Shown here one piece after another: positions 38,530-43,217 of a stretch of 64,000 nucleotides of DNA. The stretch spans positions 62,001 through 126,000 of the forward strand of contig JAIORD010000028.1 in the NCBI GenBank assembly GCA_021108275.1, written 5' to 3'. Below the pieces are notes generated by a model that made no database searches, was not told the DNA's origin, and saw nothing but the letters and a program-made list of their open reading frames with translations. Made by a program: the position numbers and the translations under genes. Origin of the DNA: Methanococcoides sp. (GTDB taxonomy: Archaea > Halobacteriota > Methanosarcinia > Methanosarcinales > Methanosarcinaceae). Positions within the stretch are counted from its first letter, which is position 1, and every line of letters starts with the position of its first letter.

Positions 38530-41500
38530 TTATTCTTCCTTTGAGATCGCTATGCTCATTGGGATGCCTTCGACATTCCATTCCTTTGCGAGCTCTCCGG
38601 TGGTTTCGACATCCAGGCCGATCACAAGCACGTTTGCACGTACCTCTTTTGCGATGTAGTTCTCAAAGTCGAGAACAAGGTCGAGTACTCTTTCATCGCT
38701 GATCTGTATGTGACCTCTGATACTGTCATCGACATCAAGGTCCAGTTCTTTACGCATGTCCTGTATCCTGCGAATGACCTCTCTTGAATATCCTTCTGAC
38801 TCTATCTCATGGGAAAGTTTTGCATCAACGAAGACCACTCCGCCATTGAATTCAGCACTTCCCACATCTTCAGGGACCGTTTCGCTGAAGTTGACCATTT
38901 TCTCGGTGATGGTCACGTTCGTACCGTCTGCAAGAGATATCTCCATCTCTCCGCCGACAAGTCCTTTCTTCAGGTCATAAGCATCCATTGCACCGATAGC
39001 TGCACTGATCTTACCTGCATCTCCCTTAAAGACCGGTCCGATGGCTCCGGGGTTAGGTGCGGATTCCACTCCAAGCTCGTTCCAGCTTTCACCGACCTTG
39101 GTAGTCTCGATATCCTTGGCATTGGTCTGGTCCATAAGGACAGAGCGCAGTCCTTCGACAGCTGCAATAGTGTTCTCATCTGTCGGGCTGACAACGATGC
39201 GGGAAACTGGCCATCTGAGTTTACGTCCTACCTTCTGGCGAGCGTTGGAAGAAGCCTCGACGATAGAGCGTGCGACCTTCATCTGTGCTTCAAGGCTGGT
39301 GTCAACAAGTGCTTCGTTGACAGTTGGCCAATCGCAGAGGTGGATGGTCACAGGAGCATTCTCGTCAACGTTCCTGACAAGGTTCTGGTACATTTCCTCT
39401 GCAAGGTGTGGCATGAATGGTGCGATCAACTTTGCAGTGGTCACGAACACATCGTAGAGCACCCTGTAGACTGCCAGTTTGTCGGGATTGTCTGCTTCTA
39501 CCCATGTCCTTGGTCTGATGAGCTGGATATACCATCTCGAAAGGTCCTCGAGCACGAATTCATTGATGGAACGCATTGCCTTGTGCAGTAATCTCGCATC
39601 CATTGCCTTATTGACCTCTGCGATCACTGTCTGCATGCGTGAAAGGATCCATTTGTCCTCGCTTCTCAAATAAGCTTCAACGGATTCGTATGAAACCTTC
39701 TGAGGGTCGAAATCGTCAAGTGCCATATATGGAAGCGGGAATCTGTATACATTCCACAGGATGTTGTTCGTCCTGTGCACTGTTGCCAGCTCATCCCAGT
39801 TGAACTTCAGGTCTTCCCAGGGTGCACTTGCTGATAGTACATATGATCGGAGGGTGTCTGCACCGAACTTATCGATTACCTCGGCAGGCTGTATGACATT
39901 GCCAATGCTCTTTGACATCTTCTTTCCGCTGCCGTCAAGGGTGAAACCGTGCATGAGCACATTCTTGTATGGTGCTTTTCCGAATGCTACCATACTGGCT
40001 CCAAGCTGTGAATAGAACCATCCACGTGTCTGGTCATGTCCTTCTGTGATAAAGTCAGCAGGCCACCATTCATCGAATTTTTCCTTTGAATGTGGGAATC
40101 TCAATGTTGCCCAGGATGCCACTGCGGAATCGAACCAGACATCGAAGACATCTTCGACACGTTTCATGGTTCCGCCACACTCACATGGCATTGTCACTTT
40201 GTCAACATAAGGTCTGTGCAGCTCGATATTCGGGTCTGCTCCTGAGCGTTCGATAAGCTCTTCCCGGGTTCCGATAACTGTCAGGCTGTTACAACTTGAA
40301 CATTTCCAGACAGGGATCGGGATACCCCAGTAGCGCTGTCTTGAGATACACCAGTCACGTGCACCCTCTATCCAGTCCTTGAACCTTGCAGAACCTGCCC
40401 ATTCAGGTGTCCAGTTGACCTTCTTGATCTCTTTGAGCATATCTTCCTTTAGCTCGCCTATCTTCAGGAACCACTGTTCGGTTGCAAGGTAGATGATAGC
40501 TGTTTTACATCTCCAGCAATGACCATACCTGTGGCTGATCATTCTCTCGGCCATGAGAAGTCCTCTCTCCAGCAGGTCATCCATAACAACGCGGTTTGCG
40601 TCACGGATGTTCATTCCGCAATATTTTCCTGCTTCATGAGTGTAACTACCATTGGGGCCCACAGGACAGAAGATCGGGAGTTCGTTCTTTACGCCAACTT
40701 CAAAATCGTCAACACCGTGTCCGGGCGCAATGTGTACACAACCTGTGCTATCTGCTGTAACGTAATCTGCATTGCATATCCTGTGTTCTATCTCTGCCTG
40801 TAAAGGCACAAGGTCTGCAAGGGGATGCTCGTAAACTGTGCCCTCGAGGTCTTTGCCTGACATCGTACTGAGAACTTCATAATCTAAATATCTGCCAATT
40901 CTGAGAACGTTCTCAACAAGCTCTGATGCGATTATCAATATCTCAGTTGCATTATTTTCACTGATAGCTTTTACTTTTGAATATTCGAATTCCGGATGGA
41001 CTGCCACAGCAATGTTGGAGGGGATGGTCCAGGGGGTTGTTGTCCAGATGACGACAAAAGTGTTCTCTTCGTCCTTTAGTTTGAACTTGATGTAAGTTGA
41101 AGGGTCTTCGCGGTCCTCATACTCGACCTCCGCGTCAGCAATTGCGGTTTCGCATCTTGGGCACCAGTTGACAACTCTCTTTCCGGTGTCAAGCAGGTTC
41201 TTTTCCTGTGCTTGTTTAAGTGTCCACCATGCAGCTTCGATGTACTCATCCTTGAGCGTCATGTAAGGGTCTTCCCAGTCAAGCCAGACGCCAAGGGTTT
41301 GGAACTGTCCGGTCATATCGTCCTTCTGGCGAAGTGCGAACTCCTTACATTTCTCAATGAAATTCCCTACACCATATGTCTCGATGTCCTTCTTTGATTC
41401 AAAACCAAGGGCACCTTCTACCTTTACCTCGATGGGCAATCCGTGCATGTCCCAGCCTGCCCTGTCAAGGATGTCATGGTCGTTCATTGACATGTAACGC

Positions 41501-41706
41501 AGGATACTGTCCTTGATTATCTTGTTCCAGGCAGTACCAAGGTGGATGTGACCTGTGGTGTATGGTGGTCCGTCCACAAAATAGAATTTCTTAGCGCCTT
41601 TCCTGTGTTCACGTACTGATCTGTAGGCGTTGTTCGCCTCCCAGAATCCATGAACCTTTGTTTCGATCTCTTTGGCATTGTACTGGTCAGTAACTTCTTT
41701 GATCAT
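38530..41706 (-). CDS. ileS: Isoleucyl-tRNA synthetase
   Basis: A 1,058-residue class I synthetase of the archaeal/eukaryotic type. HIGH-like motif [11 protein letters not shown] is near residue 55, the editing domain with [10 protein letters not shown] follows, the KMSKS loop is [10 protein letters not shown] near residue 600, and the C-terminal anticodon-binding domain is full length. It charges tRNA-Ile and edits valine. The ATG at 41706 is preceded by GGAGGG. MptE follows within 15 bases. Confidence 0.97.
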
Positions 41707-41854: not shown

Positions 41855-43165
41855 TTATATCGTTCCTGGCTCTTCAAAGAAGAACTTCTCTTCCCCAAAT
41901 GCAGGCTTAAGGTCGGTAAGCCATGAGGCTGTCGGGGAATATTTTGCAAAGAACGGTTTACGTACCCATCCGCAATCACGGCCTTGCAGGAATTCAAGCA
42001 CAAAGACCTTTTCACCGTTTATTTCCTGTGTGCCAAGGACATTTATCTTCCCTGGGTCAGTGGACATACTTGGTCCGCGTACGGTCCTTGCGAGTCCGCT
42101 CACGTTCTGGTATGCTTCCTGGAAGATCTCCCATGCTCTTGCTATCGGAGTGTCGAAGTAGTGGTTTGCACCTGTGTCCCTTACCATGAACATGTAGTAA
42201 GGGATACATCCAAGACGTACCTGTTCTCTCCACATCTGCTCCCAGATGACGGGATCATCATTTATGTGGGCTATTAGGGGGGATTGGGTTCGTATCTGTG
42301 CTCCGGTCGCACGTATGTTCTTTATGGCTTCCTTGACTGTATCTGTTGTAAGCTCTACAGGGTGGTTGAAATGGCCCATGATGGCCATGTGCTTGTTGTG
42401 GTCGGTAACATTGGAGAACAGGGACAGTATGTCTTCGCTATCCTTGTCCGAAACAAAGCGTTGTGGCCAGTAACTTAATGATTTTGTGCCTATCCTGATG
42501 TTCTCAAGTGTGCGAATATCAGCCTCGAGGAGAGGTTCGATGTATCTTTTCAGGAGATTTGCGCTCATTGTCATAGGATCTCCTCCTGTGAAAAGCACAT
42601 CTTTGACCTCTGGATGTTCCTGGAGGTATGATACTAACGTCTCTATCTCCTTGCTGGCGAACTTCAGGTCTTTCATGCCGGTGAATTGTGCCCACCTGAA
42701 GCAGAATGTACAGAATGTATGGCAGGTCTGTCCCTGTGTGGGGAAGAAAAGGACGGTTTCGTTATACTTGTGTTGCATTCCCTCAAGGACCTTGCCGTTA
42801 AGTTCGGGAACGTTCTTATCAAGCTGTCCTGCAGGATGTGGGTTCAGGGTCAAACGTATCTTATGTATTGCCTGTTGGACCTCTTCTTCCGATGCACCGG
42901 TGTGTAAAAGGTGCTTCATCTCCTCGTAGTGAGGGGGCAATAGCATGTCCTTGTTAGGAAAAGTAAGTCTGAACATTGGATCATTGGGTACATTGTCCCA
43001 ATTAATGAGCTCATCGATGACGTAATTATTAACGCGGAACGGAAATATCCTTGCAGCGATCTCGATATCCTCTTGCTGCTCCTGAGTAAAATTCTGTATC
43101 TGTGGGATCTCTTTATAATTTGAAAGGGTGTATGCGCGGAAATCTCGTTTTGTAGCACCAGTTAT
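41855..43165 (-). CDS. KamA-like radical SAM enzyme, apparent AUA start
   Basis: Radical SAM protein related to lysine 2,3-aminomutase. The cluster motif CHTFCTFC is followed by FTGGDPM and a possible PLP-lysine region DPGKINV. The first ATG (42976) would give 373 residues, but the frame is open and clearly coding for 63 more codons (DFRAYTLSNYKEIPQIQNF onward), needed for the usual N-terminal domain. No ATG, GTG or TTG exists there. GGAGGT at 43172-43177 ends six bases before an ATA at 43165, giving 436 residues. The substrate may be lysine or another amino acid; no beta-lysine acetyltransferase gene is adjacent. Confidence 0.8.
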   Translation of the reverse strand: MTGATKRDFRAYTLSNYKEIPQIQNFTQEQQEDIEIAARIFPFRVNNYVIDELINWDNVPNDPMFRLTFPNKDMLLPPHYEEMKHLLHTGASEEEVQQAIHKIRLTLNPHPAGQLDKNVPELNGKVLEGMQHKYNETVLFFPTQGQTCHTFCTFCFRWAQFTGMKDLKFASKEIETLVSYLQEHPEVKDVLFTGGDPMTMSANLLKRYIEPLLEADIRTLENIRIGTKSLSYWPQRFVSDKDSEDILSLFSNVTDHNKHMAIMGHFNHPVELTTDTVKEAIKNIRATGAQIRTQSPLIAHINDDPVIWEQMWREQVRLGCIPYYMFMVRDTGANHYFDTPIARAWEIFQEAYQNVSGLARTVRGPSMSTDPGKINVLGTQEINGEKVFVLEFLQGRDCGWVRKPFFAKYSPTASWLTDLKPAFGEEKFFFEEPGTI

Positions 43166-43191
43166 GCTGATACCTCCCGTTTTTTGTTTAG

Positions 43192-43217
43192 AAAAGCCGC
43201 CTTATAACAGCGGTTTT
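43192..43217 (-). promoter_or_regulatory. Leader hairpin before the KamA-like gene
   Basis: On the minus strand, AAAACCGC pairs with GCGG-C-TTTT across an eight-base loop, then a CTAAAC run leads to the ribosome site. It could attenuate transcription or affect access to the GGAGGT. The TATA box is near 43270. Between there and 43531 I see only AT-rich DNA, a small GGGG/CCCC hairpin at 43383-43396, and the promoter of the PUA gene. Confidence 0.4.

Follow-up and report, generated by a model that had tools for sequence, protein, structure and literature searches.

Comparative evidence for AUA as the start codon of a KamA-like radical SAM protein gene in Methanococcoides

Main finding

A gene for a KamA-like radical SAM protein is very likely translated from AUA, a codon very seldom used as a start, throughout the methane-producing archaeal genus Methanococcoides, and we put the probability of this reading at about 0.86. 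The evidence is comparative; no translation data stand behind it, and initiation itself remains unproven. A second gene, for archaetidylinositol phosphate synthase, carries AUA, AUU or AUC (AUH) at its start in most species of the family Methanosarcinaceae, and the two cases together point to a likely wider use of such codons, in which initiation is again inferred.

The locus and its leader

The window, a 64,000-nucleotide stretch of Methanococcoides DNA, carries the gene on the minus strand (41855..43165) as an open frame of 436 codons plus a stop, counted from the ATA proposed as start codon (43163..43165) to the TAA at 41857-41855. Six bases 5' of the ATA lies a Shine-Dalgarno (SD) sequence, GGAGGT (43172..43177, minus), and the minus strand around the start reads ...AAAAAACGGGAGGTATCAGC-ATA-ACTGGTGCTACAAAACGA... 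Twelve codons 5' of the ATA the frame is closed by a TAA (43202..43204, minus), and from this TAA to codon 64, the first in-frame ATG (42974..42976, minus; missing from several sister species), there is no ATG, GTG or TTG. The first-pass annotation, which gave no strand, had claimed both the GGAGGT six bases ahead of ATA and the 63 codons without a standard start before the first ATG, and both claims held.

In all 10 species that carry it, the gene lies 5' of ileS (isoleucyl-tRNA synthetase, identified by Pfam; 38530..41706, minus), the next gene downstream, across a gap of roughly 100-190 bases, and it is divergent from a PUA-domain gene. AUA is an isoleucine codon, and a link between this start and the isoleucyl-tRNA synthetase is so far a coincidence of names.

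A hairpin had also been proposed in the leader. A 5-bp stem, CCGCU/GGCGG, is indeed predicted (43197..43213, minus), but it is unsupported as a conserved or functional element: several sister species have a disrupted stem without compensatory change, although 82% of cells are paired. The leader folds no better than shuffled sequence (z = -0.46), folding z-scores are near zero across species with one exception, and an Rfam scan of the leader gave no credible match.

Conservation of the start site in Methanococcoides

We found the gene in 10 of the 11 Methanococcoides species examined, the window species included; the sole species without it is represented by a 76% complete genome. The ten proteins share 77-99% identity, and close relatives of the window gene are those of M. 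seepicolus LLY (98%) and of a Methanococcoides MAG (99%). The species fall into clade A (the window's own genome G000, with G003, G009 and G006) and clade B (G001, G004, G005, G007, G008 and G010). ATA stands at the homologous position in 10/10 species, always as GGAGG-N7-ATA, with a spacer that varies in sequence (TATCAGC, TATCGGC, CCATAGC, CCCTACC, TCCTAGC, TTCTAAC) at a fixed distance. Both GGAGG and CATAA are fully invariant over the ten species; for comparison, invariance is limited to 17 of 122 fourfold sites of the gene (14%) and 26 of 110 leader columns (24%), and elsewhere in the leader the longest such run measures 3 bases. The conservation of GGAGG and CATAA thus exceeds chance. One caveat concerns the third base of the ATA, as six of the 21 conserved isoleucine codons of the gene are also ATA in all ten species; the strong statistics belong to the site as a whole and not to the final A.

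The geometry of the SD is ordinary. Among 12 canonical starts with GGAGG in a sample from G006, eight have a spacing of 5-8, and the SD of the ATA falls at normal spacing; the window alone offers too few GGAGG sites for such a statistic.

It could be argued that the ATA is a sequencing error, or a recent ATG-to-ATA mutation in a gene heading for loss, since ATA is one transition away from ATG. This explanation is excluded for the genus, as the ATA is shared by the separate genomes of ten species, some being single contigs, across saturated silent divergence. The same ten genomes exclude the sequencing error, restoring ATG, that had been feared at the outset.

Other starts are absent in most species: eight of the ten have no ATG, GTG or TTG ahead of codon 49, and no standard start codon is common to all ten. 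The strongest rival in the leader is an in-frame ACG (43178..43180, minus), five codons 5' of the ATA and overlapping the start of the SD, from which translation would proceed independently of the SD and read the ATA as an ordinary isoleucine codon. In its favor, the codon is in frame in 10/10 species with an A-run ahead, and it is ATG in two of them: in G006 ATG replaces the ACG itself, overlapping the SD, and in G004 it stands at the corresponding codon, seven codons up. These two ATGs are possibly used in their species. Against it, no SD lies 5' of the ACG, the GGAGG would fall inside the coding region, and the residues between ACG and ATA vary freely (IS, IG, HS, PT, PS, SN) while GGAGG and CATAA stay constant. 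ACG is also a weaker start than AUA. We consider this alternative unlikely.

A second rival, which we rate very unlikely, would place the start at a codon of the +1 frame directly 3' of the ATA (43156..43158, minus), followed by a frameshift. This codon is GTG in clade A and ATG in clade B, and so is available in all ten species, but it lies about 14 bases from GGAGG, too far from the SD. In clade B the +1 frame runs for only about 20 codons before it closes, in sequence that is unrelated, and no common slippery site was seen in the ten species.

Two further features of the site were observed. Clade B leaders alone contain ATGGAGGNNNNNNCATAA directly 5' of the ATA. This is an out-of-frame ORF of five codons, which begins with an ATG overlapping the SD and ends in a TAA overlapping the ATA start, and it is accompanied by a UUAUG/CAUAA complementarity that is absent from clade A. 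The ORF and the complementarity could conceivably account for part of the CATAA conservation in clade B; clade A has neither. Within clades, silent divergence is lower in codons 2-63 (42980-43165, minus) than over the remaining codons (for example, 0.08 vs 0.25 for L001-L004), a possible hint of constraint at the RNA level close to the start.

Coding character of the N-terminal 63 codons

If the protein began at the first standard start, codons 1-63 would be untranslated, and a shortened form from codon 64 (or 49) would be the only product. These codons are indeed the first standard starts, and automatic annotation would tend to pick them. The upstream codons nevertheless evolve as coding sequence: between clades, where silent sites are saturated (dS above 1.1), codons 2-63 show a dN of 0.18-0.21 and a dN/dS well below 0.2, which corresponds to purifying selection. 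Codons 1-63 can be aligned with 40 homologues found in other organisms, chiefly bacteria with some thaumarchaea, and with two from another genus of Methanosarcinaceae, and over 52 homologues they hold the near-invariant residues P42, F43, N46, L53, I54 and W56. Homologues of other phyla (53-61% identity) start mostly with ATG or GTG, no more than a dozen residues from the ATA position. Among 112 genomes of the family, the gene occurs outside Methanococcoides in only two, and the start there is GTG-ATG or ATG, no more than about three residues away from the ATA position.

An AlphaFold2 model of the protein has a mean pLDDT of 89, with block means of at least 90 from residue 11 on, and places residues 11-63 in well-predicted helices. 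Codons 2-63 are coding, and the model predicts them to be part of the fold. A protein produced solely from codon 64 or 49 is very unlikely: its missing segment evolves as coding sequence, carries residues invariant in the family and forms well-predicted helices, and no standard start for it is common to the ten species. The claim of the first-pass annotation that codons 1-63 encode the expected N-terminal domain of the family was upheld by homologue alignment, invariant residues and predicted structure, and its central proposal of AUA initiation is supported as the best explanation.

Nature of the KamA-like protein

The protein belongs to a distinct subfamily of KamA-like radical SAM proteins. 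It scores 141 bits against TIGR00238 (curated cut-off 199.2) and 131.7 bits against TIGR03820, the lysine 2,3-aminomutase equivalog (cut-off 525.4), meeting neither, and it lies far under every equivalog of the KamA group. The best solved match to the model is lysine 2,3-aminomutase (PDB 2A5H), with a similar fold (TM 0.64-0.68) but only 21% sequence identity. Shared with that enzyme is the radical SAM cluster motif CxxxCxxC (C148, C152, C155; 42701..42724, minus), which does not vary over 39 homologues and hardly varies over 52. A conserved lysine seems to occupy the place of the PLP lysine. This candidate PLP-binding lysine, K373 in RGPSMSTDPGK (42047..42049, minus), is invariant; its match to the lysine of the aminomutase is inferred and not superposed, and the sequence alignment with 2A5H ends short of it. 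As C148, C152, C155 and K373 are all invariant, a PLP-dependent aminomutase-type reaction is a likely inference, on a substrate that is unknown. Bacterial homologues have no common partner gene among their neighbors, and a plasmid collection held distant homologues only, of at most about 54% identity.

Probable AUH starts in archaetidylinositol phosphate synthase

Of special interest is the gene for archaetidylinositol phosphate synthase (NF040950; 180.7 vs 180 bits). Over 99 species of Methanosarcinaceae its start codon is AUA in 32, AUU in 22, AUC in 13 and AUG in 32, so that AUH is found in 67/99 species and in 10 of 12 genera. The 32 AUG cases make up exactly two genera (g3 and g4), and AUG is never found at that codon in the other ten. 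The start position is fixed because IFNELK aligns with MFNELK of the AUG genera, and most other families have ATG or TTG at the homologous codon. A, U and C interchange within a single genus: g7, which we take to be the genus of M. acetivorans C2A, has 14 AUA, 12 AUC and 2 AUU. Such free exchange of three weak codons, with the strong one avoided, is what selection for weak initiation would predict.

An in-frame stop lies 5' of the codon, with no standard start between, in 29 of the 46 AUH stretches checked. An in-frame ATG two codons ahead leaves six stretches (five from g8, one from g6) ambiguous, and in one g7 stretch a TTG occupies that place. The family-wide AUH starts of this second gene point to real initiation at such codons in these archaea.

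As a separate observation, the frame of the gene is broken in the window's own genome (G000, C11:~18150) and in G003 (C35) by a small deletion near codon 17, which is similar in the two; the remainder of the gene is open.

Other candidates in the genus

We set 400 kb of G006 against 400 kb of G010, a sample of about one-sixth of one genome, and screened 184 non-overlapping conserved genes for protein conservation beginning clearly 5' of any ATG, GTG or TTG. Four cases were found besides the KamA-like gene. The first is a PAS-domain sensor (a probable histidine kinase) with AUC or AUU in 10/10 species; its SD is GG(A/T/G)GTTGATC-like, the codon follows a GGAGTTGATC-like sequence (G000:C3:~129671 in the window's own genome), and, G006 apart, the clade A species lack a standard start ahead of codon 45-47. 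The second, an ATP-grasp gene, has CTG as its likely start after AAGGTGG or AAGGAGG in most Methanococcoides, and TTG in two. The third is archaetidylinositol phosphate synthase, with AUU.

The fourth case is of another kind and concerns a small winged-helix gene (G006:C1:~111142; G000:C3:~1040, minus) whose reading frame apparently shifts by +1. This gene spans the order Methanosarcinales and has a well-placed SD and ATG. In Methanococcoides the SD is followed by AUG AGG GAU CGN UUU UGU UGA, and the conserved protein lies in the +1 frame (GGG AUC GNU UUU GUU GAA); this stretch of 18-20 bases hardly differs among many genera. We regard a programmed +1 frameshift just past the start, by a UUU-U slip, as the likely explanation, with an unusual internal start as the alternative.

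A possible mechanism

The genome encodes a normal initiator-type tRNA-Met(CAU), which has A1-U72 and an anticodon stem containing three G-C pairs, and a tRNA with anticodon UAU, a specialized AUA reader, was looked for in the genome and not found; AUA would therefore be read with a mismatch at its third base. Initiator tRNA-Met pairs imperfectly with AUH codons. In the mechanism that we propose, the strong GGAGG(U) would position the 30S subunit so that initiator Met-tRNA pairs with AUA except for a C-A mismatch at the third position, the strong SD compensating for the imperfect pairing, and the protein would begin with methionine, not with the isoleucine that is written. Initiation at AUA may be inefficient because archaeal initiation factors, aIF1 in particular, disfavor non-canonical start codons (PMC6237735, PMC8211752); in Sulfolobus aIF1 promotes discrimination against them (PMC6237735). 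The outcome would be low synthesis of the enzyme, or synthesis responsive to the fidelity of initiation, and an AUH start with a good SD may be a device common to at least one other gene in most Methanosarcinaceae. The use of AUA as a start, the weakness of initiation and any regulatory purpose are all inferred from sequence alone.

We consider it likely that selection maintains AUA, AUU and AUC (perhaps also CUG) starts in a group of Methanosarcinaceae genes, where they would act as a constant brake on translation. This group would comprise archaetidylinositol phosphate synthase across most of the family and, in Methanococcoides, the genes for the KamA-like protein, the PAS histidine kinase and the ATP-grasp protein; initiation at these codons is inferred throughout. 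If this reading is true, the likely discriminator would be aIF1 and not IF3, and start selection in archaea (aIF1, aIF1A, aIF2) may serve gene regulation as IF3 does in bacteria. Archaeal starts are usually taken as AUG, GUG and UUG, and conserved AUH starts would lead annotation to truncate or miss proteins. The archaetidylinositol phosphate synthase case reaches the genetically tractable Methanosarcina, a genus in which the idea is open to direct test by knock-ins, by reporters and from existing ribosome-profiling data.

Comparison with known systems

Non-AUG initiation by initiator tRNA-Met is itself familiar in archaea, in which GUG and UUG starts are ordinary, unlike AUA. A review of archaeal translation lists AUG, GUG and UUG as starts and does not mention AUA (PMC7531240), and we found no precedent for an archaeal AUA start in the literature searched, which left out most subscription journals. 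Conserved AUA starts are already known in bacteria; the archaeal case is new as far as the searched literature goes. Conserved AUH initiation is not known to us from earlier work on archaea, and the brake described above, if real, would be the first example.

Two bacterial systems offer the closest parallels. The AUU starts of infC and pcnB in Escherichia coli are selected weak AUH starts that limit expression. They differ from the present case in being bacterial and AUU, and infC is autoregulated by IF3, whereas archaea use aIF1, aIF1A and aIF2. The second parallel lies in infC and ccpN of Staphylococcus aureus, whose conserved AUA starts, described with the AUU of cvfC1 and an extended SD, yield about 10-30% of AUG expression in the measured cases (PMC13009471). 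The KamA-like gene resembles infC and ccpN in its conserved AUA and strong SD and, by analogy, may resemble them in low initiation, so that the earlier suggestion that an AUA start may limit expression remains an inference backed by this analogy. The S. aureus genes are unrelated to it and bacterial, with IF3 as the discriminator, and their starts were demonstrated by Ribo-Ret, whereas that of the KamA-like gene rests on comparative evidence.
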